From NCBI RefSeq assembly GCF_036373705.1, contig NW_027102771.1, positions 1 to 64,000 on the forward strand: a stretch of DNA of 64,000 nucleotides, read 5' to 3'. The position numbers and the translations under genes are program-made. Positions 1 through 64,000 of the stretch are shown here, piece by piece. Each line of letters starts with the position of its first letter. The stretch's first letter is position 1. The DNA comes from Amia ocellicauda (Eukaryota > Chordata > Actinopteri > Amiiformes > Amiidae). The notes below the pieces were generated by a model that saw nothing but the letters and a program-made list of their open reading frames with translations, searched no databases and was not told where the DNA came from.

Positions 1-498
1 CAGTGTATTCTGTTTTGAACAAACAGATGTATTTAGACTTCATCTAATATTCTGTATCAGTTCATATTACTTCGCTCTATGCTATAAAATATTACATTTT
101 TACATAGATCTAAGAAAAAACGTATGTCCGTATGTAATACCAATTTTATGTTCACATTTCCCTCTGTGCCTTTACAGTTCTTCGTTGACATTTTTTCTTC
201 TTTTCTATTTATATTTCCTCCTCTGCATTTCGTCTACTCTGTAAATAGAGATATAAAGAGAAAAACACCACCTCACCTTTTCAACTCACGTTCTCTTTCA
301 TATTTTGCCTTTGCTTGTTGTAGTGATGAGAAGGGCCAGAATGCATTGTACATTCATTTGTGCGACATGTATGGAGGATAATCCAAGGCAGAATTAAAAA
401 TAAATGCAGAGAGAAGATAATAATAAATACATGAATTATACATGTTGAACACAGAAATAAATCAATGGAGATTCATATCAACGTATTTTTTAATTCGA
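1..498. other. AT-rich spacer of the unit, no gene seen
   Basis: About 500 bp rich in T tracts on the plus strand (for example ATTTTTTCTTCTTTTC near 190-206) with TAATAATAA near 419-427. No RNA gene, protein family or known mobile element was recognised. It recurs in every unit. An 8-bp insertion (GGCTATCA) near unit position 366 marks one subfamily. Open frames here are AT-rich and low in complexity and cross the neighbouring tRNA-Ala of the previous unit. Confidence 0.7.
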
Positions 499-710
499 TT
501 TCTTAGCAGACACCATAGCCAGGGTGACTTACAGATGTTAACGAGATATTACCACATTTTGTTTTCCTTACACTTAACCCATTGGCATGGGTGGGCATTA
601 ACTGGTGCAATCCAGCTAAAGTCCCTTGCTCAAGAGTAGTAAGTGTACCAGAGACTGCACACACCGTGCTGTGCTACAGGGTACAGAGCCCAAACCACTA
701 CTCCACACTG
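499..710 (-). mobile_element. Degraded tRNA-derived SINE (fish type), reversed; one per unit
   Basis: Read on the minus strand it starts CAGTGTGGAGTAGTGGTT, continues with GGGCTCTG, a weak B-box-like GTGCAATCTC, then TTGAGCAAGG and ends TAAGTCACCCTGG...GTCTGCTAAGAAAT. This order matches a widespread ray-finned fish SINE as I remember it (head like a tRNA with A and B boxes; tail AAGTCGCCCTGGATAAGGGCGTCTGCTAAG). Both promoter boxes have decayed, so it should be inactive. The same relic lies at the same place in all 41 units, so it was present before the array grew. It has no coding part, as is normal for a SINE. Coordinates of the other copies are given under each unit. Confidence 0.75.
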
Positions 711-1141
711 TATTCAAAAGTGATTATCTGTTCAAATGAATGTAGTGTTGTGGAAGTGTCTTATTGTAACAGAGTCTTATTATGAAAGAATTGAGATTAA
801 ACGGATTAAGCAACATGTCAGGTTATTGGGTGTCAATGACACATTAACAGTGTCGACAAGGTGTGATACAAGAGCGCATTTCTGTTGACTACGTTTCAGG
901 TGAGAGGCAGCAGTCGGGTACAGGTTGAATTGAATGAGCAGATGGAGCCATGAAGACATTGAATGTATGTTGCACCTCAGTCACACTGGTGCATTGGTTT
1001 CATAATCATCATGGAATGAGATTGGAGTGTGGTAGCGGTGACTTTGATGGTCCTCCCATGCCTGGTCCGGCACACTATGATGTAGTGCTGCTGGTCGCCA
1101 GATATGAGAAGAAAACAGTGAGAGTTGGTTGTAGATGCTGT
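711..1141. other. Spacer between SINE and tRNA-Arg, no gene seen
   Basis: About 430 bp. It holds a small inverted repeat, GTGTCAATGACAC (6-bp arms, 1-base centre) near 829-841, and the 3' trailer and terminator of tRNA-Arg at its right end. Short open frames exist on both strands, but they overlap one another and the tRNA gene and look like chance. Nothing else was recognised. Confidence 0.65.
1112..1115 (-). terminator. Pol III terminator of tRNA-Arg (T4)
   Basis: AAAA on the plus strand is TTTT on the transcribed minus strand, 26 nt past the end of tRNA-Arg. A run of four or more T is the usual RNA polymerase III stop. The same run lies at the same distance from every Arg gene in the array. 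Confidence 0.8.
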
Positions 1142-1214
1142 CGAGCCAGGTAGGAGTCGAACCTACAGTCTTCTGATTCGTAGTCAGACGCGTTATCCAT
1201 TGCGCCACTGGCCC
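1142..1214 (-). tRNA. trnR(acg): tRNA-Arg (ACG), unit 1, reference copy
   Basis: Decodes CGU (and, once A34 is changed to inosine, CGC and CGA) with arginine. The 73-nt gene reads GGGCCAGTGGCGCAATGG from its 5' end. It folds as a cloverleaf: acceptor GGGCCAG/CTGGCTC, anticodon stem TCTGA/TCAGA, loop CTACGAA with ACG at 34-36 (plus-strand 1179-1181), T stem GTAGG/CCTAC with loop TTCGACT, discriminator G. The internal promoter is intact: A box TGGCGCAATGG and a perfect B box GGTTCGACTCC. There is no intron and CCA is not encoded. The body resembles vertebrate tRNA-Arg(ACG), except that position 37 is A where I remember G. It lies head to head with tRNA-Ala, 142 bp apart. Confidence 0.96.
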
Positions 1215-1356
1215 CACGTTTGGACGCACTCAAGCAATCCGATGGAAACAGCTTCTTCTGTCCTGGAACAGGGTATCAGTGAACCCAAAGGGATGCAAAG
1301 TTCAGAGCGAACCTGCAGCCGGCGCTGCACAGGGCGGTGCTGCCACAGGAAGCAGC
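1215..1356. promoter_or_regulatory. Shared 5' region between divergent tRNA-Arg and tRNA-Ala
   Basis: The 142-bp gap holds the 5' flanks of both genes. It is GC-rich on the Ala side. A perfect 6-bp inverted repeat, TGCAGC-CGGC-GCTGCA, lies at 1314-1329, 27 bp before the Ala gene. No clear TATA box is seen; both genes have internal type 2 Pol III promoters. In seven units an 87-bp deletion removes most of this region together with the 5' end of Ala. A regulatory role is inferred from position only. Confidence 0.5.
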
Positions 1357-1429
1357 GGGGAATTAGCTCAGATGGTAGAGCGCTCGCTTAGCATGCGAGA
1401 GGTGGCGGGACCGATGCCCGCATTCTCCA
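1357..1429 (+). tRNA. trnA(agc): tRNA-Ala (AGC), unit 1, reference copy
   Basis: Decodes GCU (with inosine 34 also GCC and GCA) with alanine. 73 nt: acceptor GGGGAAT/ATTCTCC with the G3:U70 pair that alanyl-tRNA synthetase reads, D stem GCTC/GAGC, anticodon stem CTCGC/GCGAG, loop TTAGCAT with AGC at 1390-1392, T stem GCGGG/CCCGC, discriminator A. No intron, no encoded CCA. The A box TAGCTCAGATGG is good. The B box reads GGACCGATGCC, with C at position 55 (1411), where the vertebrate gene as I remember it has T (GGATCGATGCC). Position 55 is almost always U (later pseudouridine), so this copy could be weaker than normal. The change is in every Ala copy of the array. Confidence 0.94.
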
Positions 1430-1513
1430 GAGCTCCTTCATCTGCTACCAGACCCGTCGTCAGCCCGCAGGACAGCCCTGCTGAGATCCTCACAAGCATA
1501 CGAGGGGTCATCA

Positions 1514-1518
1514 TTTTT
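1514..1518 (+). terminator. First T5 run after tRNA-Ala
   Basis: The first run of four or more T past tRNA-Ala is TTTTT, 84 nt after the gene. If it is the true stop, the primary transcript has an unusually long 3' trailer. The same spacing holds in all standard units. Confidence 0.6.
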
Positions 1519-2730
1519 CACTTCTTGATCACAACCACCATACCATTCGTAAATATATCCACCCCAATGTATTCACAACAAGAACCAAACAGTGTATTCT
1601 GTTTTGAACAAGCAGATGTATTTAGACTTCTTCAAATAGTCTGTTTCAGTTCATATTACTTCGCTCTATGCTATAAAATATTACATTTTTACATAGATCT
1701 AAGAAAAATCGTATGTCCGTATGTAATACCAATTTTATGTTCACATTTCCCTCTGTGCATTTACAGTTCTTCGTTGACATTTTTTCTTCTTTTCTATTTA
1801 TATTTCCTCCTCTGCATTTCGTCTACTCTGTAAATAGAGATATAAAGAGAAAAACACCACCTCACCTTTTCAACTCACGTTCTCTTTCATATTTTGGCTT
1901 TGCTTGTTGTAGTGATGAGAAGGGCCAGAATGCATTGTACATTCATTTGTGCGACATGTATGGAGGATAATCCAAGGCAGAATAAAAAATAAATGCAGAG
2001 AGAAGATAATAATAAATACATGAATTATACATGTTGAACACAGAAATAAATCAATGGAGATTCATATCAACGTATTTTTTAATTCGATTTCTTAGCAGAC
2101 ACCATAGCCAGGGTGACTTACAGATGTTAACGAGATATTACCACATTTTGTTTTCCTTACACTTAACCCATTGGCATGGGTGGGCATTAACTGGTGCAAT
2201 CTAGCTAAAGTCCCTTGCTCAAGAGTAGTAAGTGTACCAGAGATTGCACACACCGTGCTGTGCTACAGGGTACAGAGCCCAAACCACTACTCCACACTGT
2301 ATTCAAAAGTGATTGTCTATTCAAATGAATGTAGTGTTGTGGAAGTGTCTTATTGTAACAGAGTCTTATTATGAAAGAATTGAGATTAAACGGATTAAGC
2401 AACATGTCAGGATATTGGGTGTCAATGACACATTAACAGTGTCGACAAGGTGTGATACAAGTGCGCATTTCTGTTGACTACGTTTCAGGTGAGAGGCAGC
2501 AGTCGGGTACAGGTTGAATTGAATGAGCAGATGGAGCCATGAAGACATTGAATGTATGTTGCACCTCAGTCACACTGGTGCAATGGTTTGATAATCATCA
2601 TGGAATGAGATTGGAGTGTGGTAGCGGTGACTTTGATGGTCCTCCCATGCCTGGTCCGGCACACTATGATGTAGTGCTGCTGGTCGCCAGATATGAGAAG
2701 AAAACAGTGAGAGTTGGTTGTAGATGCTGT

Positions 2731-10675: not shown

Positions 10676-10748
10676 CGAGCCAGGTAGGAGTCGAACCTAC
10701 AGTCTTCTGATTCGAAGTCAGACGCGTTATCCATTGCGCCACTGGCCC
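10676..10748 (-). tRNA. trnR(tcg): tRNA-Arg (TCG), unit 7, anticodon-switched
   Basis: Identical to the ACG copies except at 10715, where position 34 changes from A to T. The loop becomes CTTCGAA and the anticodon TCG, which reads CGA. The promoter boxes and all stems are untouched. Both anticodons specify arginine. Confidence 0.95.
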
Positions 10749-10963: not shown

Positions 10964-12271
10964 GAGCTCCTTCATCTGCTACCAGACCCGTCTTCAGCCC
11001 GCAGGACAGCCCTGCTGAGATCCTCACAAGCATACGAGGGGTCGTCGTTTTTCACTTCTTGATCACAACCACCATACCATTCGTAAATATATCCACCCCA
11101 ATGTATTCACAACAAGAACAATACAGTGTATTCTGTTTTGAACAAACAGATGTATTTAGACTTCTTCAAATATTCTGTATCAGTTCATATTACTTCGCTC
11201 TATGCTATAAAATATTACATTTTTACATAGATCTAAGAAAAAGCGTATGTCCGTATGTAATACCAATTTTATGTTCACATTTCCCTCTGTGCATTTACAG
11301 TTCTTCGTTGACATTTTTTCTTCTTTCCTATTTATATTTCCTCCTCTGCATTTCGTCTACTCTGTAAATAGAGATATAAAGAGAAAAACACCACCTCACC
11401 TTTTCAACTCACGTTCTCTTTCATATTTTGGCTTTGCCTGTTGTAGTGATGAGAAGGGCCAGAATGCATTGTACATTCATTTGTGCGACAGGCTATCATG
11501 TATGGAGGATAATCCAAGGCAGAATTAAAAATAAATGCAGAGAGAAGATAATAATATATACATTAATTATACATGTTGAGCATAGAAATAAATCAATGGA
11601 GATTCATATCAACATATCGTTAACTCGATTTCTTAGCAGACACCAAAGCCAGGGTGACTTACAGATGTTAACGAGATATTACCACATTTTGTTTTCCTTA
11701 CACTTAACCCATTGGCATGGGTGGGCATTAACTGGTGCAATCTAGCTAAAGTCCCTTGCTCAAGAGTAGTAAGTGTACCAGAGATTGCACACACCGTGCT
11801 GTGCTACAGGGTACAGAGCCCAAACCACTACTCCACACTGTATTCAAAAGTGATTATCTGTTCAAATGAATGTAGTTTTGTGGAAGTGTCTTATTGTAAC
11901 AGAGTCTTATTATGAAAGAATTGAGATTAAACGGATTAAGCAACATGTCAGGATATTGGGTGTCAAAAACACATTAACAGTGTCGACAAGGTGTGATACA
12001 AGTGCGCATTTCTGTTGACTACGGTTCAGGTGAGAGGCAGCAGTCGGGTACAGGTTGAATTGAATGAGCAGATGGAGCCATGAACACATTGAATGTATGT
12101 TGCACCTCAGTCACACTGGTGCAATGGTTTGATAATCATCATGGAATGAGATTGGAGTGTGGTAGCGGTGACTTTGATGGTCCTCCCATGCCTGGTCCGG
12201 CACACTATGATGTAGTGCTGCTGGTCGCCAGATATGAGAAGAAAACAGCGAGAGTTGGGTGTAGATGCTGT

Positions 12272-12344
12272 CGAGCCAGGTAGGAGTCGAACCTACAGTC
12301 TTCTGATTCGAAGTCAGACGCGTTATCCATTGCGCCACTGGCCC
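12272..12344 (-). tRNA. trnR(tcg): tRNA-Arg (TCG), unit 8
   Basis: Position 34 changed at 12311. The 87-bp deletion brings the damaged Ala to within 55 bp of its 5' end. Confidence 0.95.
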
Positions 12345-12399
12345 CACGTTTGGACGCACTCAAGCAATCCGATGGAAACAGCTTCTTCTGTCCTGGAAC

Positions 12400-12472
12400 A
12401 GGGTATTAGCTCAGATGGTAGAGCGCTCGCTTAGCATGCGAGAGGTGGCGGGACCGATGCCCGCATTCTCCA
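12400..12472 (+). pseudogene. tRNA-Ala (AGC) with replaced 5' acceptor strand, unit 8
   Basis: An 87-bp deletion joins GAACAGGGTAT to TAGCTCAG, so the first seven bases read AGGGTAT instead of GGGGAAT. Five of seven acceptor pairs survive by chance, including G3:U70; A1-C72 and T5-T68 are mismatches. The rest, including anticodon AGC and both promoter boxes, is as in the reference. It may still be transcribed but probably gives a poor substrate. A new TTTT at 12500-12503 lies 27 nt past the end, a stop absent from other copies except unit 26. Confidence 0.85.
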
Positions 12473-13773
12473 GAGCTCCTTCATCTGCTACCAGACCCGT
12501 TTTCAGCCCGCAGGACAGCCCTGCTGAGATCCTCACAAGCATACGAGGGGTCGTCATTTTTCACTTCTTGATCACAACCACCATACCATTCGTAAATATA
12601 TCCACCCCAATGTATTCACAACAAGAACAATACAGTGTATTCTGTTTTGAACAAACAGATGTATTTAGACTTCTTCAAATATTCTGTATCAGTTCATATT
12701 ACTTCGCTCTATGCTATAAAATATTACATTTTTACATAGATCTAAGAAAAAGCGTATGTCCGTATGTAATACCAATTTTATGTTCACATTTCCCTCTGTG
12801 CATTTACAGTTCTTCGTTGACATTTTTTCTTCTTTCCTATTTATATTTCCTCCTCTGCATTTCGTCTACTCTGTAAATAGAGATATAAAGAGAAAAACAC
12901 CACCTCACCTTTTCAACTCACTTTCTCTTTCATATTTTGGCTTTGCCTGTTGTAGTGATGAGAAGGGCCAGAATGCATTGTACATTCACTTGTGCGACAT
13001 GTATGGAGGATAATCCAAGGCAGAATTAAAAATAAATGCAGAGAGAAGATAATAATAAATACATGAATTATACATGTTGAACACAGAAATAAATCAATGG
13101 AGATTCATATCAACGTATTTTTTAATTCGATTTCTTAGCAGACACCATAGCCAGGGTGACTTACAGATGTTAACGAGATATTACCACATTTTGTTTTCCT
13201 TACACTTAACCCATTGGCATGGGTGGGCATTAACTGGTGCAATCTAGCTAAAGTCCCTTGCTCAAGAGTAGTAAGTGTACCAGAGATTGCACACACCGTG
13301 CTGTGCTACAGGGTACAGAGCCCAAACCACTACTCCACACTGTATTCAAAAGTGATTGTCTATTCAAATGAATGTAGTGTTGTGGAAGTGTCTTATTGTA
13401 ACAGAGTCTTATTATGAAAGAATTGAGATTAAACGGATTAAGCAACATGTCAGGATATTGGGTGTCAATGACACATTAACAGTGTCGACAAGGTGTGATA
13501 CAAGTGCGCATTTCTGTTGACTACGTTTCAGGTGAGAGGCAGCAGTCGGGTACAGGTTGAATTGAATGAGCAGATGGAGCCATGAAGACATTGAATGTAT
13601 GTTGCACCTCAGTCACACTGGTGCAATGGTTTGATAATCATCATGGAATGAGATTGGAGTGTGGTAGCGGTGACTTTGATGGTCCTCCCATGCCTGGTCC
13701 GGCACACTATGATGTAGTGTTGCTGGTCGCCAGATATGAGAAGAAAACAGTGAGAGTTGGTTGTAGATGCTGT

Positions 13774-18546: not shown

Positions 18547-18619
18547 CGAGCCAGGTAGGAGTCGAACCTACAGTCTTCTGATTCGAAGTCAGACGCGTTA
18601 TCCATTGCGCCACTGGCCC
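18547..18619 (-). tRNA. trnR(tcg): tRNA-Arg (TCG), unit 12
   Basis: Position 34 changed at 18586; otherwise reference. Confidence 0.95.
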
Positions 18620-18674
18620 CACGTTTGGACGCACTCAAGCAATCCGATGGAAACAGCTTCTTCTGTCCTGGAAC

Positions 18675-18747
18675 AGGGTATTAGCTCAGATGGTAGAGCG
18701 CTCGCTTAGCATGCGAGAGGTGGCGGGACCGATGCCCGCATTCTCCA
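18675..18747 (+). pseudogene. tRNA-Ala with replaced 5' acceptor strand, unit 12
   Basis: Same 87-bp deletion joint as unit 8; no TTTT in the trailer. Confidence 0.85.
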
Positions 18748-27993: not shown

Positions 27994-28068
27994 CGAGCCA
28001 GGTAGGAGTCGAACCTCTACAGTCTTCTGATTCGTAGTCAGACGCGTTATCCATTGCGCCACTGGCCC
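27994..28068 (-). tRNA. tRNA-Arg (ACG) with T-arm insertion, probable pseudogene, unit 18
   Basis: 75 nt instead of 73. Two extra bases near 28016-28018 change the T stem 5' strand from GTAGG to GTAGAGG. Only three of five T-stem pairs remain next to the loop. Anticodon ACG and the B box GGTTCGACTCC are intact, so it may still be transcribed. Confidence 0.8.
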
Positions 28069-40714: not shown

Positions 40715-40787
40715 CGAGCCAGGTAGGAGTCGAACCTACAGTCTTCTGATTCGAAGTCAGACGCGTTATCCATTGCGCCACTGGCCC
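40715..40787 (-). tRNA. trnR(tcg): tRNA-Arg (TCG), unit 26
   Basis: Position 34 changed at 40754. Confidence 0.95.
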
Positions 40788-40842
40788 CACGTTTGGACGC
40801 ACTCAAGCAATCCGATGGAAACAGCTTCTTCTGTCCTGGAAC

Positions 40843-40915
40843 AGGGTATTAGCTCAGATGGTAGAGCGCTCGCTTAGCATGCGAGAGGTGGCGGGACCGA
40901 TGCCCGCATTCTCCA
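40843..40915 (+). pseudogene. tRNA-Ala with replaced 5' acceptor strand, unit 26
   Basis: Deletion joint as in unit 8, and the same new TTTT in the trailer at 40943-40946. Confidence 0.85.
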
Positions 40916-44092: not shown

Positions 44093-45393
44093 GAGCTCCT
44101 TCATCTGCTACCAGACCCGTCTTCAGCCCGCAGGACAGCCCTGCTGAGATCCTCACAAGCATACGAGGGGTCGTCATTTTTCACTTCTTGATCACAACCA
44201 CCATACCATTCGTAAATATATCCACCCCAATGTATTCACAACAAGAACAATACAGTGTATTCTGTTTTGAACAAACAGATGTATTTAGACTTCATCAAAT
44301 ATTCTGTATCAGTTCATATTACTTCGCTCTATGCTATAAAATATTACATTTTTACATAGATCTAAGAAAAAACGTATGTCCGTATGTAATACCAATTTTA
44401 TGTTCACATTTCCCTCTGTGCATTTACAGTTCTTCGTTGACATTTTTTCTTCTTTTCTATTTATATTTCCTCCTCTGCATTTCGTCTACTCTGTAAATAG
44501 AGATATAAAGAGAAAAACACCACCTCACCTTTTCAACTCACGTTCTCTTTCATATTTTGCCTTTGCTTGTTGTAGTGATGAGAAGGGCCAGAATGCATTG
44601 TACATTCACTTGTGCGACATGTATGTAGGATAATCCAAGGCAGAATTAAAAATAAATGCAGAGAGAAGATAATAATAAATACATGAATTATACATGTTGA
44701 ACATAGAAATAAATCAATGGAGATTCATATCAACGTATTTTTTAATTCGATTTCTTAGCAGACACCAAAGCCAGGGTGACTTACAGATGTTAACGAGATA
44801 TTACCACATTTTGTTTTCCTTACACTTAACCCATTGGCATGGGTGGGCATTAACTGGTGCAATCTAGCTAAAGTCCCTTGCTCAAGAGTAGTAAGTGTAC
44901 CAGAGATTGCACACACCGTGCTGTGCGACAGGGTACAGAGCCCAAACCACTACTCCACACTGTATTCAAAAGTGATTGTCTATTCAAATGAATGTAGTGT
45001 TGTGGAAGTGTCTTATTGTAACAGAGTCTTATTATGAAAGAATTGAGATTAAACGGATTAAGCAACATGTCAGGTTATTGGGTGTCAATGACACATTAAC
45101 AGTGTCGACAAGGTGTGATACAAGTGCGCATTTCTGTTGACTACGGTTCAGGTGAGAGGCAGCAGTCGGGTACAGGTTGAATTGAATGAGCAGATGGAGC
45201 CATGAACACATTGAATGTATGTTGCACCTCAGTCACACTGGTGCAATGGTTTGATAATCATCATGGAATGAGATTGGAGTGTGGTAGCGGTGACTTTGAT
45301 GGTCCTCCCATGCCTGGTCCGGCACACTATGATGTAGTGCTGCTGGTCGCCAGATATGAGAAGAAAACAGCGAGAGTTGGGTGTAGATGCTGT

Positions 45394-45466
45394 CGAGCCA
45401 GGTAGGAGTCGAACCTACAGTCTTCTGATTCGAAGTCAGACGCGTTATCCATTGCGCCACTGGCCC
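45394..45466 (-). tRNA. trnR(tcg): tRNA-Arg (TCG), unit 29
   Basis: Position 34 changed at 45433; lies in the zone where the unit 11 and unit 12 types join. Confidence 0.95.
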
Positions 45467-45521
45467 CACGTTTGGACGCACTCAAGCAATCCGATGGAAA
45501 CAGCTTCTTCTGTCCTGGAAC

Positions 45522-45594
45522 AGGGTATTAGCTCAGATGGTAGAGCGCTCGCTTAGCATGCGAGAGGTGGCGGGACCGATGCCCGCATTCTCCA
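45522..45594 (+). pseudogene. tRNA-Ala with replaced 5' acceptor strand, unit 29
   Basis: Same 87-bp deletion joint; trailer as unit 12. Confidence 0.85.
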
Positions 45595-46895
45595 GAGCTC
45601 CTTCATCTGCTACCAGACCCGTCTTCAGCCCGCAGGACAGCCCTGCTGAGATCCTCACAAGCATACGAGGGGTCGTCATTTTTCACTTCTTGATCACAAC
45701 CACCATACCATTCGTAAATATATCCACCCCAATGTATTCACAACAAGAACAATACAGTGTATTCTGTTTTGAACAAACAGATGTATTTAGACTTCATCAA
45801 ATATTCTGTATCAGTTCATATTACTTCGCTCTATGCTATAAAATATTACATTTTTACATAGATCTAAGAAAAAACGTATGTCCGTATGTAATACCAATTT
45901 TATGTTCACATTTCCCTCTGTGCATTTACAGTTCTTCGTTGACATTTTTTCTTCTTTTCTATTTATATTTCCTCCTCTGCATTTCGTCTACTCTGTAAAT
46001 AGAGATATAAAGAGAAAAACACCACCTCACCTTTTCAACTCACTTTCTCTTTCATATTTTGGCTTTGCTTGTTGTAGTGATGAGAAGGGCCAGAATGCAT
46101 TGTACATTCACTTGTGCGACATGTATGTAGGATAATCCAAGGCAGAATTAAAAATAAATGCAGAGAGAAGATAATAATAAATACATGAATTATACATGTT
46201 GAACACAGAAATAAATCAATGGAGATTCATATCAACGTATTTTTTAATTCGATTTCTTAGCAGACACCAAAGCCAGGGTGACTTACAGATGTTAACGAGA
46301 TATTACCACATTTTGTTTTCCTTACACTTAACCCATTGGCATGGGTGGGCATTAACTGGTGCAATCTAGCTAAAGTCCCTTGCTCAAGAGTAGTAAGTGT
46401 ACCAGAGATTGCACACACCGTGCTGTGCTACAGGGTACAGAGCCCAAACCACTACTCCACACTGTATTCAAAAGTGATTGTCTATTCAAATGAATGTAGT
46501 GTTGTGGAAGTGTCTTATTGTAACAGAGTCTTATTATGAAAGAATTGAGATTAAACGGATAAAGCAACATGTCAGGTTATTGGGTGTCAATGACACATTA
46601 ACAGTGTCGACAAGGTGTGATACAAGTGCGCATTTCTGCTGACTACGTTTCAGGTGAGAGGCAGCAGTCGGGTACAGGTTGAATTGAATGAGCAGATGGA
46701 GCCATGAACACATTGAATGTATGTTGCACCTCAGTCACACTGGTGCAATGGTTTGATAATCATCATGGAATGAGATTGGAGTGTGGTAGCGGTGACTTTG
46801 ATGGTCCTCCCATGCCTGGTCCGGCACACTATGATGTAGTGCTGCTGGTCGCCAGATATGAGAAGAAAACAGCGAGAGTTGGTTGTAGATGCTGT

Positions 46896-50073: not shown

Positions 50074-50146
50074 CGAGCCAGGTAGGAGTCGAACCTACAG
50101 TCTTCTGATTCGAAGTCAGACGCGTTATCCATTGCGCCACTGGCCC
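50074..50146 (-). tRNA. trnR(tcg): tRNA-Arg (TCG), unit 32
   Basis: Position 34 changed at 50113. Confidence 0.95.
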
Positions 50147-50201
50147 CACGTTTGGACGCACTCAAGCAATCCGATGGAAACAGCTTCTTCTGTCCTGGAA
50201 C

Positions 50202-50274
50202 AGGGTATTAGCTCAGATGGTAGAGCGCTCGCTTAGCATGCGATAGGTGGCGGGACCGATGCCCGCATTCTCCA
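50202..50274 (+). pseudogene. tRNA-Ala, 5' acceptor replaced plus anticodon-stem change, unit 32
   Basis: Same deletion joint, and a further change at 50244 (G43 to T) breaks the C27-G43 pair. Shared with units 35 and 40: a decayed line of the truncated gene. Confidence 0.87.
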
Positions 50275-51582
50275 GAGCTCCTTCATCTGTTACCAGACCC
50301 GTCTTCAGCCTGCAGGACAGCCCTGCTGAGATCCTCACAAGCATACGAGGGGTCGTCGTTTTTCACTTCTTGATCACAACCACCATACCATTCGTAAATA
50401 TATCCACCCCAATGTATTCACAACAAGAACAATACAGTGTATTCTGTTTTGAACAAACAGATGTATTTAGACTTCATCAAATATTCTGTATCAGTTCATA
50501 TTACTTCGCTCTATGCTATAAAATATTACATTTTTACATAGATCTAAGAAAAAACGTATGTCCGTATGTAATACCAATTTTATGTTCACATTTCCCTCTG
50601 TGCATTTACAGTTCTTCGTTGACATTCTTTCTTCTTTTCTATTTATATTTCCTCCTCTGCATTTCGTCTACTCTGTAAATAGAGATATAAAGAGAAAAAC
50701 ACCACCTCACCTTTTCAACTCACGTTCTCTTTCATATTTTGGCTTTACTTGTTGTAGTGATAAAAAGGGCCAGAATGCATTGTACATTCATTTGTGCGAC
50801 AGGCTATCATGTATGGAGGATAATCCAAGGCAGAATTAAAAATAAATGCAGAGAGAAGATAATAATATATACATTAATTATACATGTTGAGCATAGAAAT
50901 AAATCAATGGAGATTCATATCAACGTATCTTTAACTCGATTTCTTAGCAGACACCAAAGCCAGGGTGACTTACAGATGTTAACGAGATATTACCACATTT
51001 TGTTTTCCTTACACTTAACCCATTGGCATGGGTGGGCATTAACTGGTGCAATCTAGCTAAAGTCCCTTGCTCAAGAGTAGTAAGTGTACCAGAGATTGCA
51101 CACACCGTGCTGTGCTACAGGGTACAGAGCCCAAACCACTACTCCACACTGTATTCAAAAGTGATTGTCTATTCAAATGAATGTAGTGTTGTGGAAGTGT
51201 CTTATTGTAACAGAGTCTTATTATGAAAGAATTGAGATTAAACGGATTAAGCAACATGTCAGGTTATTGGGTGTCAATGACACATTAACAGTGTCGACAA
51301 GGTGTGATACAAGTGCGCATTTCTGTTGACTACGGTTCAGGTGAGAGGCAGCAGTCGGGTACAGGTTGAATTGAATGAGCAGATGGAGCCATGAACACAT
51401 TGAATGTATGTTGCACCTCGGTCACACTGGTGCAATGGTTTGATAATCATCATGGAATGAGATTGGAGTGTGGTAGCGGTGACTTTGATGGTCCTCCCAT
51501 GCCTGGTCCGGCACACTATGATGTAGTGCTGCTGGTCGCCAGATATGAGAAGAAAACAGCGAGAGTTGGATGTAGATGCTTT

Positions 51583-51655
51583 CGAGCCAGGTAGGAGTCG
51601 AACCTACAGTCTTCTGATTCGTAGTCAGACGCGTTATCCATTGCGCCACTGGCCC
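51583..51655 (-). tRNA. trnR(acg): tRNA-Arg (ACG), unit 33
   Basis: Gene as reference; flanks changed to GATGCTTT on the 3' side and GGCCCAACG at the 5' edge. Confidence 0.95.
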
Positions 51656-51797
51656 AACGTTTGGACGCACTCAATCAATCCGATGGAAACAGCTTCTTCT
51701 GTCCTGGAACAGGGTATCAGTGAACCCAAAGGGATGCAAAGTTCAGAGCGAACCTGCAGCCGGCGCTGCACAGGGCGGTGCTGCCACAGGAAGCAGC

Positions 51798-51870
51798 GGG
51801 GAATTAGCTCAGATGGTAGAGCGCTCGCTTAGCATGCGAGAGGTGGCGGGACCGATGCCCGCATTCTCCA
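51798..51870 (+). tRNA. trnA(agc): tRNA-Ala (AGC), unit 33
   Basis: Reference sequence with C55. Confidence 0.93.
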
Positions 51871-53171
51871 GAGCTCCTTCATCTGCTACCAGACCCGTCT
51901 TCAGCCCGCAGGACAGCCCTGCTGAGATCCTCACAAGCATACGAGGGGTCGTCATTTTTCACTTCTTGATCACAACCACCATACCATTCGTAAATATATC
52001 CACCCCAATGTATTCACAACAAGAACAATACAGTGTATTCTGTTTTGAACAAACAGATGTATTTAGACTTCATCTAATATTCTGTATCAGTTCATATTAC
52101 TTCGCTCTATGCTATAAAATATTACATTTTTACATAGATCTAAGAAAAAACGTATGTCCGTATGTAATACCAATTTTATGTTCACATTTCCCTCTGTGCC
52201 TTTACAGTTCTTCGTTGACATTTTTTCTTCTTTTCTATTTATATTTCCTCCTCTGCATTTCGTCTACTCTGTAAATAGAGATATAAAGAGAAAAACACCA
52301 CCTCACCTTTTCAACTCACGTTCTCTTTCATATTTTGCCTTTGCTTGTTGTAGTGATGAGAAGGGCCAGAATGCATTGTACATTCATTTGTGCGACATGT
52401 ATGGAGGATAATCCAAGGCAGAATTAAAAATAAATGCAGAGAGAAGATAATAATAAATACATGAATTATACATGTTGAACACAGAAATAAATCAATGGAG
52501 ATTCATATCAACGTATTTTTTAATTCGATTTCTTAGCAGACACCATAGCCAGGGTGACTTACAGATGTTAACGAGATATTACCACATTTTGTTTTCCTTA
52601 CACTTAACCCATTGGCATGGGTGGGCATTAACTGGTGCAATCTAGCTAAAGTCCCTTGCTCAAGAGTAGTAAGTGTACCAGAGATTGCACACACCGTGCT
52701 GTGCTACAGGGTACAGAGCCCAAACCACTACTCCACACTGTATTCAAAAGTGATTGTCTATTCAAATGAATGTAGTGTTGTGGAAGTGTCTTATTGTAAC
52801 AGAGTCTTATTATGAAAGAATTGAGATTAAACGGATTAAGCAACATGTCAGGATATTGGGTGTCAATGACACATTAACAGTGTCGACAAGGTGTGATACA
52901 AGTGCGCATTTCTGTTGACTACGTTTCAGGTGAGAGGCAGCAGTCGGGTACAGGTTGAATTGAATGAGCAGACGGAGCCATGAAGACATTGAATGTATGT
53001 TGCACCTCAGTCACACTGGTGCAATGGTTTGATAATCATCATGGAATGAGATTGGAGTGTGGTAGCGGTGACTTTGATGGTCCTCCCATGCCTGGTCAGG
53101 CACACTATGATGTAGTGCTGCTGGTCGCCAGATATGAGAAGAAAACAGTGAGAGTTGGTTGTAGATGCTGT

Positions 53172-53459: not shown

Positions 53460-54760
53460 GAGCTCCTTCATCTGCTACCAGACCCGTCTTCAGCCCGCAG
53501 GACAGCCCTGCTGAGATCCTCACAAGCATACGAGGGGTCGTCATTTTTCACTTCTTGATCACAACCACCATACCATTCGTAAATATATCCACCCCAATGT
53601 ATTCACAACAAGAACAATACAGTGTATTCTGTTTTGAACAAACAGATGTATTTAGACTTCATCTAATATTCTGTATCAGTTCATATTACTTCGCTCTATG
53701 CTATAAAATATTACATTTTTACATAGATCTAAGAAAAAACGTATGTCCGTATGTAATACCAATTTTATGTTCACATTTCCCTCTGTGCCTTTACAGTTCT
53801 TCGTTGACATTTTTTCTTCTTTTCTATTTATATTTCCTCCTCTGCATTTCGTCTACTCTGTAAATAGAGATATAAAGAGAAAAACACCACCTCACCTTTT
53901 CAACTCACTTTCTCTTTCATATTTTGGCTTTGCTTGTTGTAGTGATGAGAAGGGCCAGAATGCATTGTACATTCACTTGTGCGACATGTATGTAGGATAA
54001 TCCAAGGCAGAATTAAAAATAAATGCAGAGAGAAGATAATAATAAATACATGAATTATACATGTTGAACACAGAAATAAATCAATGGAGATTCATATCAA
54101 CGTATTTTTTAATTCGATTTCTTAGCAGACACCAAAGCCAGGGTGACTTACAGATGTTAACGAGATATTACCACATTTTGTTTTCCTTACACTTAACCCA
54201 TTGGCATGGGTGGGCATTAACTGGTGCAATCTAGCTAAAGTCCCTTGCTCAAGAGTAGTAAGTGTACCAGAGATTGCACACACCGTGCTGTGCGACAGGG
54301 TACAGAGCCCAAACCACTACTCCACACTGTATTCAAAAGTGATTGTCTATTCAAATGAATGTAGTGTTGTGGAAGTGTCTTATTGTAACAGAGTCTTATT
54401 ATGAAAGAATTGAGATTAAACGGATTAAGCAACATGTCAGGTTATTGGGTGTCAATGACACATTAACAGTGTCGACAAGGTGTGATACAAGTGCGCATTT
54501 CTGTTGACTACGGTTCAGGTGAGAGGCAGCAGTCGGGTACAGGTTGAATTGAATGAGCAGATGGAGCCATGAACACATTGAATGTATGTTGCACCTCAGT
54601 CACACTGGTGCAATGGTTTGATAATCATCATGGAATGAGATTGGAGTGTGGTAGCGGTGACTTTGATGGTCCTCCCATGCCTGGTCCGGCACACTATGAT
54701 GTAGTGCTGCTGGTCGCCAGATATGAGAAGAAAACAGCGAGAGTTGGGTGTAGATGCTGT

Positions 54761-54833
54761 CGAGCCAGGTAGGAGTCGAACCTACAGTCTTCTGATTCGA
54801 AGTCAGACGCGTTATCCATTGCGCCACTGGCCC
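54761..54833 (-). tRNA. trnR(tcg): tRNA-Arg (TCG), unit 35
   Basis: Position 34 changed at 54800. Confidence 0.95.
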
Positions 54834-54888
54834 CACGTTTGGACGCACTCAAGCAATCCGATGGAAACAGCTTCTTCTGTCCTGGAAC

Positions 54889-54961
54889 AGGGTATTAGCT
54901 CAGATGGTAGAGCGCTCGCTTAGCATGCGATAGGTGGCGGGACCGATGCCCGCATTCTCCA
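54889..54961 (+). pseudogene. tRNA-Ala, 5' acceptor replaced plus anticodon-stem change, unit 35
   Basis: Deletion joint plus G43 to T at 54931. Confidence 0.87.
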
Positions 54962-56269
54962 GAGCTCCTTCATCTGTTACCAGACCCGTCTTCAGCCTGC
55001 AGGACAGCCCTGCTGAGATCCTCACAAGCATACGAGGGGTCGTCGTTTTTCACTTCTTGATCACAACCACCATACCATTCGTAAATATATCCACCCCAAT
55101 GTATTCACAACAAGAACAATACAGTGTATTCTGTTTTGAACAAACAGATGTATTTAGACTTCATCAAATATTCTGTATCAGTTCATATTACTTCGCTCTA
55201 TGCTATAAAATATTACATTTTTACATAGATCTAAGAAAAAACGTATGTCCGTATGTAATACCAATTTTATGTTCACATTTCCCTCTGTGCATTTACAGTT
55301 CTTCGTTGACATTCTTTCTTCTTTTCTATTTATATTTCCTCCTCTGCATTTCGTCTACTCTGTAAATAGAGATATAAAGAGAAAAACACCACCTCACCTT
55401 TTCAACTCACGTTCTCTTTCATATTTTGGCTTTACTTGTTGTAGTGATAAAAAGGGCCAGAATGCATTGTACATTCATTTGTGCGACAGGCTATCATGTA
55501 TGGAGGATAATCCAAGGCAGAATTAAAAATAAATGCAGAGAGAAGATAATAATATATACATTAATTATACATGTTGAGCATAGAAATAAATCAATGGAGA
55601 TTCATATCAACGTATCTTTAACTCGATTTCTTAGCAGACACCAAAGCCAGGGTGACTTACAGATGTTAACGAGATATTACCACATTTTGTTTTCCTTACA
55701 CTTAACCCATTGGCATGGGTGGGCATTAACTGGTGCAATCTAGCTAAAGTCCCTTGCTCAAGAGTAGTAAGTGTACCAGAGATTGCACACACCGTGCTGT
55801 GCTACAGGGTACAGAGCCCAAACCACTACTCCACACTGTATTCAAAAGTGATTGTCTATTCAAATGAATGTAGTGTTGTGGAAGTGTCTTATTGTAACAG
55901 AGTCTTATTATGAAAGAATTGAGATTAAACGGATTAAGCAACATGTCAGGTTATTGGGTGTCAATGACACATTAACAGTGTCGACAAGGTGTGATACAAG
56001 TGCGCATTTCTGTTGACTACGGTTCAGGTGAGAGGCAGCAGTCGGGTACAGGTTGAATTGAATGAGCAGATGGAGCCATGAACACATTGAATGTATGTTG
56101 CACCTCAGTCACACTGGTGCAATGGTTTGATAATCATCATGGAATGAGATTGGAGTGTGGTAGCGGTGACTTTGATGGTCCTCCCATGCCTGGTCCGGCA
56201 CACTATGATGTAGTGCTGCTGGTCGCCAGATATGAGAAGAAAACAGCGAGAGTTGGATGTAGATGCTTT

Positions 56270-56342
56270 CGAGCCAGGTAGGAGTCGAACCTACAGTCTT
56301 CTGATTCGTAGTCAGACGCGTTATCCATTGCGCCACTGGCCC
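56270..56342 (-). tRNA. trnR(acg): tRNA-Arg (ACG), unit 36
   Basis: Gene as reference; flanks as in unit 33. Confidence 0.95.
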
Positions 56343-56484
56343 AACGTTTGGACGCACTCAATCAATCCGATGGAAACAGCTTCTTCTGTCCTGGAACAGG
56401 GTATCAGTGAACCCAAAGGGATGCAAAGTTCAGAGCGAACCTGCAGCCGGCGCTGCACAGGGCGGTGCTGCCACAGGAAGCAGC

Positions 56485-56557
56485 GGGGAATTAGCTCAGA
56501 TGGTAGAGCGCTCGCTTAGCATGCGAGAGGTGGCGGGACCGATGCCCGCATTCTCCA
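56485..56557 (+). tRNA. trnA(agc): tRNA-Ala (AGC), unit 36
   Basis: Reference sequence with C55. Confidence 0.93.
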
Positions 56558-57858
56558 GAGCTCCTTCATCTGCTACCAGACCCGTCTTCAGCCCGCAGGA
56601 CAGCCCTGCTGAGATCCTCACAAGCATACGAGGGGTCGTCATTTTTCACTTCTTGATCACAACCACCATACCATTCGTAAATATATCCACCCCAATGTAT
56701 TCACAACAAGAACAATACAGTGTATTCTGTTTTGAACAAACAGATGTATTTAGACTTCATCTAATATTCTGTATCAGTTCATATTACTTCGCTCTATGCT
56801 ATAAAATATTACATTTTTACATAGATCTAAGAAAAAACGTATGTCCGTATGTAATACCAATTTTATGTTCACATTTCCCTCTGTGCCTTTACAGTTCTTC
56901 GTTGACATTTTTTCTTCTTTTCTATTTATATTTCCTCCTCTGCATTTCGTCTACTCTGTAAATAGAGATATAAAGAGAAAAACACCACCTCACCTTTTCA
57001 ACTCACGTTCTCTTTCATATTTTGCCTTTGCTTGTTGTAGTGATGAGAAGGGCCAGAATGCATTGTACATTCATTTGTGCGACATGTATGGAGGATAATC
57101 CAAGGCAGAATTAAAAATAAATGCAGAGAGAAGATAATAATAAATACATGAATTATACATGTTGAACACAGAAATAAATCAATGGAGATTCATATCAACG
57201 TATTTTTTAATTCGATTTCTTAGCAGACACCATAGCCAGGGTGACTTACAGATGTTAACGAGATATTACCACATTTTGTTTTCCTTACACTTAACCCATT
57301 GGCATGGGTGGGCATTAACTGGTGCAATCTAGCTAAAGTCCCTTGCTCAAGAGTAGTAAGTGTACCAGAGATTGCACACACCGTGCTGTGCTACAGGGTA
57401 CAGAGCCCAAACCACTACTCCACACTGTATTCAAAAGTGATTGTCTATTCAAATGAATGTAGTGTTGTGGAAGTGTCTTATTGTAACAGAGTCTTATTAT
57501 GAAAGAATTGAGATTAAACGGATTAAGCAACATGTCAGGATATTGTGTGTCAATGACACATTAACAGTGTCGACAAGGTGTGATACAAGTGCGCATTTCT
57601 GTTGACTACGTTTCAGGTGAGAGGCAGCAGTCGGGTACAGGTTGAATTGAATGAGCAGATGGAGCCATGAACACATTGAATGTATGTTGCACCTCAGTCA
57701 CACTGGTGCAATGGTTTGATAATCATCATGGAATGAGATTGGAGTGTGGTAGCGGTGACTTTGATGGTCCTCCCATGCCTGGTCCGGCACACTATGATGT
57801 AGTGCTGCTGGTCGCCAGATATGAGAAGAAAACAGTGAGAGTTGGTTGTAGATGCTGT

Positions 57859-58146: not shown

Positions 58147-59454
58147 GAGCTCCTTCATCTGCTACCAGACCCGTCTTCAGCCCGCAGGACAGCCCTGCTG
58201 AGATCCTCACAAGCATACGAGGGGTCGTCATTTTTCACTTCTTGATCACAACCACCATACCATTCGTAAATATATCCACCCCAATGTATTCACAACAAGA
58301 ACAATACAGTGTATTCTGTTTTGAACAAACAGATGTATTTAGACTTCATCTAATATTCTGTATCAGTTCATATTACTTCGCTCTATGCTATAAAATATTA
58401 CATTTTTACATAGATCTAAGAAAAAACGTATGTCCGTATGTAATACCAATTTTATGTTCACATTTCCCTCTGTGCCTTTACAGTTCTTCGTTGACATTTT
58501 TTCTTCTTTTCTATTTATATTTCCTCCTCTGCATTTCGTCTACTCTGTAAATAGAGATATAAAGAGAAAAACACCACCTCACCTTTTCAACTCACGTTCT
58601 CTTTCATATTTTGGCTTTACTTGTTGTAGTGATAAAAAGGGCCAGAATGCATTGTACATTCATTTGTGCGACAGGCTATCATGTATGGAGGATAATCCAA
58701 GGCAGAATTAAAAATAAATGCAGAGAGAAGATAATAATATATACATTAATTATACATGTTGAGCATAGAAATAAATCAATGGAGATTCATATCAACGTAT
58801 CTTTAACTCGATTTCTTAGCAGACACCAAAGCCAGGGTGACTTACAGATGTTAACGAGATATTACCACATTTTGTTTTCCTTACACTTAACCCATTGGCA
58901 TGGGTGGGCATTAACTGGTGCAATCTAGCTAAAGTCCCTTGCTCAAGAGTAGTAAGTGTACCAGAGATTGCACACACCGTGCTGTGCTACAGGGTACAGA
59001 GCCCAAACCACTACTCCACACTGTATTCAAAAGTGATTGTCTATTCAAATGAATGTAGTGTTGTGGAAGTGTCTTATTGTAACAGAGTCTTATTATGAAA
59101 GAATTGAGATTAAACGGATTAAGCAACATGTCAGGTTATTGGGTGTCAATGACACATTAACAGTGTCGACAAGGTGTGATACAAGTGCGCATTTCTGTTG
59201 ACTACGGTTCAGGTGAGAGGCAGCAGTCGGGTACAGGTTGAATTGAATGAGCAGATGGAGCCATGAACACATTGAATGTATGTTGCACCTCGGTCACACT
59301 GGTGCAATGGTTTGATAATCATCATGGAATGAGATTGGAGTGTGGTAGCGGTGACTTTGATGGTCCTCCCATGCCTGGTCCGGCACACTATGATGTAGTG
59401 CTGCTGGTCGCCAGATATGAGAAGAAAACAGCGAGAGTTGGATGTAGATGCTTT

Positions 59455-59527
59455 CGAGCCAGGTAGGAGTCGAACCTACAGTCTTCTGATTCGTAGTCAG
59501 ACGCGTTATCCATTGCGCCACTGGCCC
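59455..59527 (-). tRNA. trnR(acg): tRNA-Arg (ACG), unit 38
   Basis: Gene as reference; flanks as in unit 33. Confidence 0.95.
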
Positions 59528-59669
59528 AACGTTTGGACGCACTCAATCAATCCGATGGAAACAGCTTCTTCTGTCCTGGAACAGGGTATCAGTGAACCCA
59601 AAGGGATGCAAAGTTCAGAGCGAACCTGCAGCCGGCGCTGCACAGGGCGGTGCTGCCACAGGAAGCAGC

Positions 59670-59742
59670 GGGGAATTAGCTCAGATGGTAGAGCGCTCGC
59701 TTAGCATGCGAGAGGTGGCGGGACCGATGCCCGCATTCTCCA
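59670..59742 (+). tRNA. trnA(agc): tRNA-Ala (AGC), unit 38
   Basis: Reference sequence with C55. Confidence 0.93.
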
Positions 59743-61043
59743 GAGCTCCTTCATCTGCTACCAGACCCGTCTTCAGCCCGCAGGACAGCCCTGCTGAGAT
59801 CCTCACAAGCATACGAGGGGTCGTCATTTTTCACTTCTTGATCACAACCACCATACCATTCGTAAATATATCCACCCCAATGTATTCACAACAAGAACAA
59901 TACAGTGTATTCTGTTTTGAACAAACAGATGTATTTAGACTTCATCTAATATTCTGTATCAGTTCATATTACTTCGCTCTATGCTATAAAATATTACATT
60001 TTTACATAGATCTAAGAAAAAACGTATGTCCGTATGTAATACCAATTTTATGTTCACATTTCCCTCTGTGCCTTTACAGTTCTTCGTTGACATTTTTTCT
60101 TCTTTTCTATTTATATTTCCTCCTCTGCATTTCGTCTACTCTGTAAATAGAGATATAAAGAGAAAAACACCACCTCACCTTTTCAACTCACGTTCTCTTT
60201 CATATTTTGCCTTTGCTTGTTGTAGTGATGAGAAGGGCCAGAATGCATTGTACATTCATTTGTGCGACATGTATGGAGGATAATCCAAGGCAGAATTAAA
60301 AATAAATGCAGAGAGAAGATAATAATAAATACATGAATTATACATGTTGAACACAGAAATAAATCAATGGAGATTCATATCAACGTATTTTTTAATTCGA
60401 TTTCTTAGCAGACACCATAGCCAGGGTGACTTACAGATGTTAACGAGATATTACCACATTTTGTTTTCCTTACACTTAACCCATTGGCATGGGTGGGCAT
60501 TAACTGGTGCAATCTAGCTAAAGTCCCTTGCTCAAGAGTAGTAAGTGTACCAGAGATTGCACACACCGTGCTGTGCTACAGGGTACAGAGCCCAAACCAC
60601 TACTCCACACTGTATTCAAAAGTGATTGTCTATTCAAATGAATGTAGTGTTGTGGAAGTGTCTTATTGTAACAGAGTCTTATTATGAAAGAATTGAGATT
60701 AAACGGATTAAGCAACATGTCAGGATATTGGGTGTCAATGACACATTAACAGTGTCGACAAGGTGTGATACAAGTGCGCATTTCTGTTGACTACGTTTCA
60801 GGTGAGAGGCAGCAGTCGGGTACAGGTTGAATTGAATGAGCAGACGGAGCCATGAAGACATTGAATGTATGTTGCACCTCAGTCACACTGGTGCAATGGT
60901 TTGATAATCATCATGGAATGAGATTGGAGTGTGGTAGCGGTGACTTTGATGGTCCTCCCATGCCTGGTCAGGCACACTATGATGTAGTGCTGCTGGTCGC
61001 CAGATATGAGAAGAAAACAGTGAGAGTTGGTTGTAGATGCTGT

Positions 61044-61258: not shown

Positions 61259-61331
61259 GGGGAATTAGCTCAGATGGTAGAGCGCTCGCTTAGCATGCGA
61301 GAGGTGGCGGGACCGATGCCCGCATTCTCCA
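61259..61331 (+). tRNA. trnA(agc): tRNA-Ala (AGC), unit 39
   Basis: Reference sequence with C55. Confidence 0.93.
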
Positions 61332-62632
61332 GAGCTCCTTCATCTGCTACCAGACCCGTCTTCAGCCCGCAGGACAGCCCTGCTGAGATCCTCACAAGCA
61401 TACGAGGGGTCGTCATTTTTCACTTCTTGATCACAACCACCATACCATTCGTAAATATATCCACCCCAATGTATTCACAACAAGAACAATACAGTGTATT
61501 CTGTTTTGAACAAACAGATGTATTTAGACTTCATCTAATATTCTGTATCAGTTCATATTACTTCGCTCTATGCTATAAAATATTACATTTTTACATAGAT
61601 CTAAGAAAAAACGTATGTCCGTATGTAATACCAATTTTATGTTCACATTTCCCTCTGTGCCTTTACAGTTCTTCGTTGACATTTTTTCTTCTTTTCTATT
61701 TATATTTCCTCCTCTGCATTTCGTCTACTCTGTAAATAGAGATATAAAGAGAAAAACACCACCTCACCTTTTCAACTCACTTTCTCTTTCATATTTTGGC
61801 TTTGCTTGTTGTAGTGATGAGAAGGGCCAGAATGCATTGTACATTCACTTGTGCGACATGTATGTAGGATAATCCAAGGCAGAATTAAAAATAAATGCAG
61901 AGAGAAGATAATAATAAATACATGAATTATACATGTTGAACACAGAAATAAATCAATGGAGATTCATATCAACGTATTTTTTAATTCGATTTCTTAGCAG
62001 ACACCAAAGCCAGGGTGACTTACAGATGTTAACGAGATATTACCACATTTTGTTTTCCTTACACTTAACCCATTGGCATGGGTGGGCATTAACTGGTGCA
62101 ATCTAGCTAAAGTCCCTTGCTCAAGAGTAGTAAGTGTACCAGAGATTGCACACACCGTGCTGTGCGACAGGGTACAGAGCCCAAACCACTACTCCACACT
62201 GTATTCAAAAGTGATTGTCTATTCAAATGAATGTAGTGTTGTGGAAGTGTCTTATTGTAACAGAGTCTTATTATGAAAGAATTGAGATTAAACGGATTAA
62301 GCAACATGTCAGGTTATTGGGTGTCAATGACACATTAACAGTGTCGACAAGGTGTGATACAAGTGCGCATTTCTGTTGACTACGGTTCAGGTGAGAGGCA
62401 GCAGTCGGGTACAGGTTGAATTGAATGAGCAGATGGAGCCATGAACACATTGAATGTATGTTGCACCTCAGTCACACTGGTGCAATGGTTTGATAATCAT
62501 CATGGAATGAGATTGGAGTGTGGTAGCGGTGACTTTGATGGTCCTCCCATGCCTGGTCCGGCACACTATGATGTAGTGCTGCTGGTCGCCAGATATGAGA
62601 AGAAAACAGCGAGAGTTGGGTGTAGATGCTGT

Positions 62633-62705
62633 CGAGCCAGGTAGGAGTCGAACCTACAGTCTTCTGATTCGAAGTCAGACGCGTTATCCATTGCGCCACT
62701 GGCCC
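62633..62705 (-). tRNA. trnR(tcg): tRNA-Arg (TCG), unit 40
   Basis: Position 34 changed at 62672. Confidence 0.95.
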
Positions 62706-62760
62706 CACGTTTGGACGCACTCAAGCAATCCGATGGAAACAGCTTCTTCTGTCCTGGAAC

Positions 62761-62833
62761 AGGGTATTAGCTCAGATGGTAGAGCGCTCGCTTAGCATGC
62801 GATAGGTGGCGGGACCGATGCCCGCATTCTCCA
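62761..62833 (+). pseudogene. tRNA-Ala, 5' acceptor replaced plus anticodon-stem change, unit 40
   Basis: Deletion joint plus G43 to T at 62803. Confidence 0.87.
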
Positions 62834-62993
62834 GAGCTCCTTCATCTGTTACCAGACCCGTCTTCAGCCTGCAGGACAGCCCTGCTGAGATCCTCACAAG
62901 CATACGAGGGGTCGTCGTTTTTCACTTCTTGATCACAACCACCATACCATTCGTAAATATATCCACCCCAATGTATTCACAACAAGAACAATA

Positions 62994-64000
62994 CAGTGTA
63001 TTCTGTTTTGAACAAACAGATGTATTTAGACTTCATCAAATATTCTGTATCAGTTCATATTACTTCGCTCTATGCTATAAAATATTACATTTTTACATAG
63101 ATCTAAGAAAAAACGTATGTCCGTATGTAATACCAATTTTATGTTCACATTTCCCTCTGTGCATTTACAGTTCTTCGTTGACATTCTTTCTTCTTTTCTA
63201 TTTATATTTCCTCCTCTGCATTTCGTCTACTCTGTAAATAGAGATATAAAGAGAAAAACACCACCTCACCTTTTCAACTCACGTTCTCTTTCATATTTTG
63301 GCTTTACTTGTTGTAGTGATAAAAAGGGCCAGAATGCATTGTACATTCATTTGTGCGACAGGCTATCATGTATGGAGGATAATCCAAGGCAGAATTAAAA
63401 ATAAATGCAGAGAGAAGATAATAATATATACATTAATTATACATGTTGAGCATAGAAATAAATCAATGGAGATTCATATCAACGTATCTTTAACTCGATT
63501 TCTTAGCAGACACCAAAGCCAGGGTGACTTACAGATGTTAACGAGATATTACCACATTTTGTTTTCCTTACACTTAACCCATTGGCATGGGTGGGCATTA
63601 ACTGGTGCAATCTAGCTAAAGTCCCTTGCTCAAGAGTAGTAAGTGTACCAGAGATTGCACACACCGTGCTGTGCTACAGGGTACAGAGCCCAAACCACTA
63701 CTCCACACTGTATTCAAAAGTGATTGTCTATTCAAATGAATGTAGTGTTGTGGAAGTGTCTTATTGTAACAGAGTCTTATTATGAAAGAATTGAGATTAA
63801 ACGGATTAAGCAACATGTCAGGTTATTGGGTGTCAATGACACATTAACAGTGTCGACAAGGTGTGATACAAGTGCGCATTTCTGTTGACTACGGTTCAGG
63901 TGAGAGGCAGCAGTCGGGTACAGGTTGAATTGAATGAGCAGATGGAGCCATGAACACATTGAATGTATGTTGCACCTCAGTCACACTGGTGCAATGGTTT
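62994..64000 (+). repeat. Array unit 41, partial (1007 bp), cut by the window end
   Basis: Contains the first spacer with the 8-bp insertion, SINE 63499-63710 and part of the second spacer. The window ends before its tRNA genes. Copy of unit 36. Confidence 0.95.

Follow-up and report, generated by a model that had tools for sequence, protein, structure and literature searches.

The 64,000-nucleotide window analyzed here (contig NW_027102771.1 of Amia ocellicauda, positions 1-64,000) is filled by a tandem array whose 1.59-kb unit carries one tRNA-Arg gene and one tRNA-Ala gene in divergent orientation. The array is genuine and lies far beyond chance. We think it probable that it is a single-locus macrosatellite of tRNA genes, a further case of the known tandem tRNA gene (tDNA) arrays with a unit combination of its own. 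Its sequence also favors, with similar likelihood, an account in which the array changes by whole units, the Arg gene is plausibly transcribed, the function of the Ala gene is doubtful, and the copies are mostly redundant.

Forty full units stand head to tail in the window, followed by part of a 41st, and the array (1..64000) runs on to the contig end at 78,939. Units start at positions 1, 1590, 3179 and so on up to 62994, in steps that are mostly 1,589 bp and otherwise 1,502, 1,509, 1,588, 1,591, or 1,596 bp. Unit 1 (1..1589, plus strand; 1,589 bp) served as the reference. Every unit has a minus-strand tRNA-Arg and a plus-strand tRNA-Ala whose 5' ends face each other, separated in the consensus unit by a head-to-head intergenic region of 142 bp (1215..1356). 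The Rfam tRNA model returned 80 tRNAs above its cut-off in the window, all 80 of the 80 expected (40 Arg and 40 Ala), and ARAGORN returned 76 (40 Arg and 36 Ala), missing four Ala genes. An earlier note on this DNA had described forty full copies of a divergent Arg/Ala unit filling the window; its count is exact, and the Rfam calls bear out the gene pair and its orientation.

Pairwise identity among the 40 units averages 98.8%, with a minimum of 97.7% (gaps uncounted). High-identity units arranged head to tail over tens of kilobases, each with tRNA genes, make this a tandem tDNA array. Tandem Repeats Finder reported nothing for the window because the longest period searched was 500. The GC content of the window is 42% by base counts, and the observed/expected (o/e) CpG ratio of the unit is 0.61.

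Extent and copy number of the array

We searched a genome of 988 Mb in 385 contigs, in which the window makes up bases 1-64,000 of contig C136. This contig is array throughout its 78,939 bp; BLAST finds 50 genes of each kind on it, and ARAGORN 96 tRNAs. A 65-base pattern from the Ala gene, allowed up to 3 mismatches, produced 239 matches in the genome, 188 reverse and 51 forward (0 for the backward control), and a pattern from the spacer between both genes matched 205 times (0 for the control). Among the approximately 100 matches listed of the 239 and approximately 100 of the 205, all fall on C136 and on C20, a 36.2-Mb contig that carries the array on the opposite strand to C136. The C20 array is very likely the same array as that of the window. 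In the C20 sequence analyzed (4,330,001-4,530,000), we found 116 Ala and 116 Arg genes; the array has an edge at 4,346,821 and extends through to 4,530,000 without a second one. The remark in the earlier note that no edge was in sight is thus accurate for the window and the whole 78,939-bp contig, but one edge does exist on C20.

Beyond the analyzed C20 stretch, 72 reverse Ala matches remain (188 - 116), and a single forward match lies outside C136 (51 - 50). The simplest account of the 72 is that the array would continue on C20 to about 4.64 Mb. The C20 stretch has a single gap, a run of 200 N at 4,366,657-4,366,856. The sequences on its two sides overlap exactly over 10,933 bp, which indicates two unjoined contigs and about 7 units counted double. 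The array probably amounts to about 180 units per haplotype (188 - 7). We rejected the 239 Ala matches as a per-haplotype number because part of C20 is most likely present again as C136 and because some 7 units are counted twice at the gap.

The relationship between C136 and C20 can be followed unit by unit. Units 1-49 of C136 follow the order of units 52-102 of C20; 46 of the 49 could be aligned, and 34 of these 46 are identical. The 46 aligned units differ at 22 places in total (a gap run counted as one), a base difference of about 0.03%; pairs of C20 units carry 16.3 differences on average. Three C136 units and five C20 units are unmatched. The last 12,071 bp of C136 are identical to the first 12,071 bp of the contig left of the C20 gap; the contig right of the gap shares 10,933 bp with this same left contig, giving two alternative paths onto one shared contig. 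Because of the ordered unit match and the exact overlaps, C136 is most likely the other haplotype and not a set of additional copies. The aligned units suggest that the haplotypes most likely differ mainly by whole units gained, lost, or replaced.

The two tRNA genes and their variation

Genes and spacer were compared in 163 units (49 from C136 and 114 from C20), which are not independent, about 7 on C20 being counted twice; 102 of the 163 are distinct sequences. The tRNA-Arg gene of unit 1 (anticodon ACG; 1142..1214, minus strand) was called by ARAGORN and by Rfam at 63.7 bits, and 40 copies are present in the window. Of these, 35 score 63.7 or 66.5 bits with Rfam and the other 5 score 53.2-61.3 bits. 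According to ARAGORN, 30 of the 40 copies have the anticodon ACG and 10 have TCG; the latter lie at 10676..10748 (minus strand) and at 12272, 16951, 18547, 39119, 40715, 45394, 50074, 54761, and 62633. Across the 163 units, TCG is found in 21 and ACG in the others.

The Arg consensus contains one non-standard D-stem pair. Its T-loop, TTCGACT, has T55 and C56, and the first T-run downstream of the gene is TTTT at 1112..1115 (minus strand), at an offset of 26 nt, a likely terminator for RNA polymerase III (Pol III). This T-run occurs at offset 26 in 160 of the 163 units, and the other 3 have none within 400 nt. The gene thus shows the features of a functional nuclear tRNA gene, namely a cloverleaf, T55-C56, and a close T-run. 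Its normal T-loop and the T-run at 26 nt suggest that it is plausibly usable by Pol III and transcribed.

tRNA genes, those for tRNA-Ala included, almost always have T at position 55. The Ala gene of this array has C55 in 166 of 166 copies found by BLAST on C136 and C20. In unit 1, the gene (anticodon AGC; 1357..1429, plus strand; T-loop ACCGATG) was called by ARAGORN and by Rfam at 53.2 bits. Its consensus forms a cloverleaf with every stem paired, and the anticodon is AGC in the 36 window copies called by ARAGORN. All 40 window copies score above the Rfam cut-off, at 53.2 bits in 32, 47.4 in 1, and 42.3 or 38.4 in 7. The first T-run after the gene is TTTTT at 1514..1518 (plus strand), at an offset of 84; the offset is 84 in 155 of the 163 units, 27 in 4, and 172 in 4. 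The gene therefore has neither T55 nor a close T-run. The C55 in its B box and the 84-nt distance to the T-run make its activity doubtful, and it may be weak or silent.

Several classes of altered units recur along the array. A deletion of 87 bp takes out the start of the Ala gene together with most of the sequence between the two genes in 14 of the 163 units and in 7 of the 40 in the window. These are 1,509-bp units that combine the deletion with an 8-bp insertion and an Arg TCG anticodon (11124..12632, plus strand; also 17399-18907 and 39567-41075) and 1,502-bp units with the same deletion and no insertion (44253..45754, plus strand; also 48933-50434, 53620-55121, and 61492-62993). Their Ala genes score 42.3 or 38.4 bits, compared with 53.2 in 32 of the 40 window copies. 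In all 7 window units with the deletion, the Arg anticodon is TCG. The 8-bp insertion, located near unit position 365, marks both the 1,509-bp units and a 1,596-bp class that has lost 1 bp elsewhere (50435..52030, plus strand; also 55122-56717 and 58307-59902); the next unit of the latter class starts at 62994 and runs past the end of the window. In 6 of the 163 units, and in 1 of the 40 in the window (27994..28068, minus strand; ARAGORN and Rfam), the Arg T arm carries a 2-bp insertion. As the 87-bp deletion and the T-arm insertion are each recurrent, damaged genes have spread with their units.

Blocks of units with at most one difference per unit also recur: 5 units at an offset of 18 on C136, and 4 units at an offset of 8 on C20, where the longest recurring run, 7 units at an offset of 7, is the gap overlap. 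We considered strong local homogenization and rejected it, since the differences between units hardly shift with distance. Mean differences on C20 are 14.6 at a distance of 1 and 17.0 at 40; on C136 they are 17.7 and 17.9 at the same distances, with a high of 20.3 at 10.

Lower variation in the tRNA genes than in the flanking spacer was not found for either gene among the 102 distinct units. Variable sites number 7 of 73 in Arg, 6 of 73 in Ala, and 83 of 1,101 in the remaining spacer (Fisher P = 0.49 for Arg and 0.82 for Ala). Among all 73-bp windows of the unit, 74% vary at no more sites than Arg and 60% at no more than Ala, so that the genes do not stand out. The two genes together hold 14 substitutions, 8 of them in stems (3 in Arg and 5 in Ala), and 8 of these 8 break a pair, a raw count that carries no chance expectation.

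Flanking sequence and other features of the unit

Left of the C20 edge, neither tRNA genes (ARAGORN) nor unit-like sequence (BLAST) was found in 16,820 bp. A reverse transcriptase of the non-LTR (non-long terminal repeat) type lies at C20:4344338-4346413 on the minus strand, with RVT_1 in two frames and zf-RVT in one, and its open frame extends to about 0.4 kb from the edge. By eye, a near-identical peptide stretch of this reverse transcriptase recurs at L011:1227-1502. About 10 kb from the edge is an exon with a ZP-N domain (C20:4336136-4336636, or L011:6136-6636; plus strand; 8.9e-9), with a PDB match to Choriogenin H (2.2e-15); a gene resembling choriogenin would be in keeping with a fish. 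A second ZP-N match, at L011:4445-5050 on the minus strand (1.9e-4), is below the cut-off.

Within the spacer of unit 1, the 3' element of the UnaL2 long interspersed nuclear element (LINE) gave a weak full-length match at 490..545 on the minus strand (22.9 bits, cut-off 55, E = 0.25), in a search covering window positions 1-1700. This stretch is possibly the decayed tail of a retroposon, either a LINE or a short interspersed nuclear element (SINE), and we take the spacer at 490-720 to resemble a decayed fish SINE tail. Dada transposons in fish target tRNA-Ala and other small RNA genes (PMC8869645, PMC3706591). The window units hold no Dada insertion, because their lengths range only from 1,502 to 1,596 bp.

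Competing explanations and known tDNA arrays

In the explanation we favor, the array would be a macrosatellite at one locus, with about 180 head-to-tail units of 1.59 kb per haplotype, each with divergent Arg and Ala genes. Units would be gained and lost by unequal exchange, which would carry intact and damaged genes alike. Pol III could use the Arg gene, and the Ala gene would be weak or silent. Total output would not be set by copy number, which would leave most copies redundant and free to mutate; the array copies do look individually dispensable.

Several points weigh against this explanation. Both genes keep their consensus form in 120 of the 163 units; long neglect would not leave so many intact, although copying of intact units also explains the number. 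The 163 units are dependent on one another, with 49 coming from C136 and about 7 doubled on C20. Multicopy genes that are in use may equal their spacer in diversity, since one bad copy costs little and transcription raises mutation. CpG o/e is 1.05 and 0.94 in the tRNA genes versus 0.48 in the rest of the spacer, and transitions occur at 8 of 88 CpG sites versus 25 of 590 other C/G sites, a two-fold difference in raw counts. This CpG pattern, an equivocal signal overall, does not point to heavy methylation. Finally, C136 could be an assembly duplicate instead of an allele, as its base differences from C20 are very few (about 0.03%).

The earlier note had offered two readings, a large supply of both tRNAs and a satellite that bears tRNA genes but is mostly silent. 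Both the array and the large number of its copies are borne out, and the satellite fits better; bulk supply of both tRNAs is not supported, given the Ala C55, the distant T-run, and the lack of excess conservation in the genes. Under bulk supply, the units would make much tRNA-Arg and tRNA-Ala at a stage of heavy demand, most likely oogenesis, by analogy with zebrafish Chr4R Region-2. That region supplies maternal 5S rRNA and small nuclear RNAs, and the same paper raises maternal tRNAs as an untested hypothesis (PMC11075544). Copy number would suit such a role, as would the 120 of 163 units with both genes in consensus form and the Arg T-run at +26 in 160 of 163. However, the genes are no more conserved than the spacer, C55 is present in all 166 Ala copies, the T-run comes at +84 in 155 of the 163 units, and 14 of 163 units have the deletion that removes the start of Ala and most of the sequence between the genes. 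The ZP-domain exon about 10 kb from the edge is a single neighbor and provides no evidence for co-regulation. We consider bulk supply unlikely. It seems more doubtful still that the array is a stage-specific tRNA isodecoder pair, made only in the germ line and distinct in sequence from the somatic genes, in which about one-eighth of the Arg copies (21 of 163) read TCG. If so, a maternal or testis tRNA set would be separable from somatic tRNA by sequence, which would answer in another fish a question left open in the zebrafish paper (PMC11075544).

The remaining explanations concern chromatin, mobile elements, and the assembly. Many TFIIIC sites could act as a barrier, an idea put forward for the tDNA repeat at human 1q23.3, and the array would then serve as a chromatin boundary or in spatial organization. 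The layout resembles that of the human repeat, with 98% identical units and tRNA genes on both strands, but unit 1 has no good CTCF-like site: a rough scan of this one unit with two consensus strings gave 0 matches to one and two 3-mismatch matches to the looser. Nor is the unit GC-rich (42% for the window) or, with a CpG o/e of 0.61, CpG-island-like, and the chance of a boundary role appears slim. We consider it very improbable that each unit is a mobile element headed by a tRNA and set in tandem, amplified as a SINE or by a transposon. The weak UnaL2-tail match on the Arg strand and the non-LTR reverse transcriptase near the array edge would fit such an origin, but the UnaL2 match is below the cut-off, the tRNA genes are well formed and sit in strict head-to-tail units, and the matches listed for the two genome patterns (about 100 of 239 and about 100 of 205) are all on C20 and C136. 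Least credible of all is a short array inflated by misassembly. The exact 10,933-bp overlap at the C20 gap, which doubles about 7 units, and the presence of C136, in which part of the locus appears again, do speak for some inflation, but a short array would not give 102 distinct units among 163, in the same order on two contigs.

Among the large tRNA arrays of some fish genomes, the present one is simple, with two genes and apparently one locus. Its products may be told from those of other tRNA genes by tags, namely the Ala C55, the Arg T arm, and the Arg TCG anticodon. Since its two probable haplotypes allow unit-by-unit comparison, the array would be a good site for asking whether array tRNAs are used at all and how arrays change in size. 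It also cautions that the tRNA copy number of an assembly does not equal tRNA supply, as the present count is raised by an overlap left unmerged and by a contig that probably represents the second haplotype.

Among the open-access papers listed, none describes an Arg/Ala array in fish, judged by titles and abstract openings, and PMC11075544 was the only paper found on maternal tRNA genes. The Xenopus tDNA repeat, on which no paper turned up among 8 of 10 listed in one literature query, is likewise a tandem tRNA unit of a few kilobases; by the earlier note's account it has eight genes in about 3.2 kb, compared with two in 1.59 kb here. The Arabidopsis SYY tRNA-Ser/Tyr cluster shares tandem repeats with two tRNA types and redundant copies (PMC12308677). 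That cluster is from a plant, and its expression is known: most tissues keep it silent, whereas the root cap expresses it. Teleost tDNA clusters, including those of zebrafish, can have fifty and more members, as here (PMC2888827, PMC11075544). The most frequent neighboring tDNA pairs in Danio are K-N, K-S, and R-T, nearly all pairs being parallel; in contrast, the pair in this array is Arg-Ala, arranged head to head (PMC2888827). The human 1q23.3 repeat has a GC-rich 7.3-kb unit with CTCF binding and five tRNA genes (Leu, Gly, Glu, Gly, and Asp) in 9-43 units, whereas the fish unit is 1.59 kb long, has only Arg and Ala, is not GC-rich, and shows no good CTCF-like site in unit 1 (PMC4041453). 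The two arrays are nevertheless alike in their head-to-tail units of about 98% identity with several tRNA genes on both strands, and the variation in copy number between alleles shown for the human repeat may well hold for the fish array too (PMC4041453).

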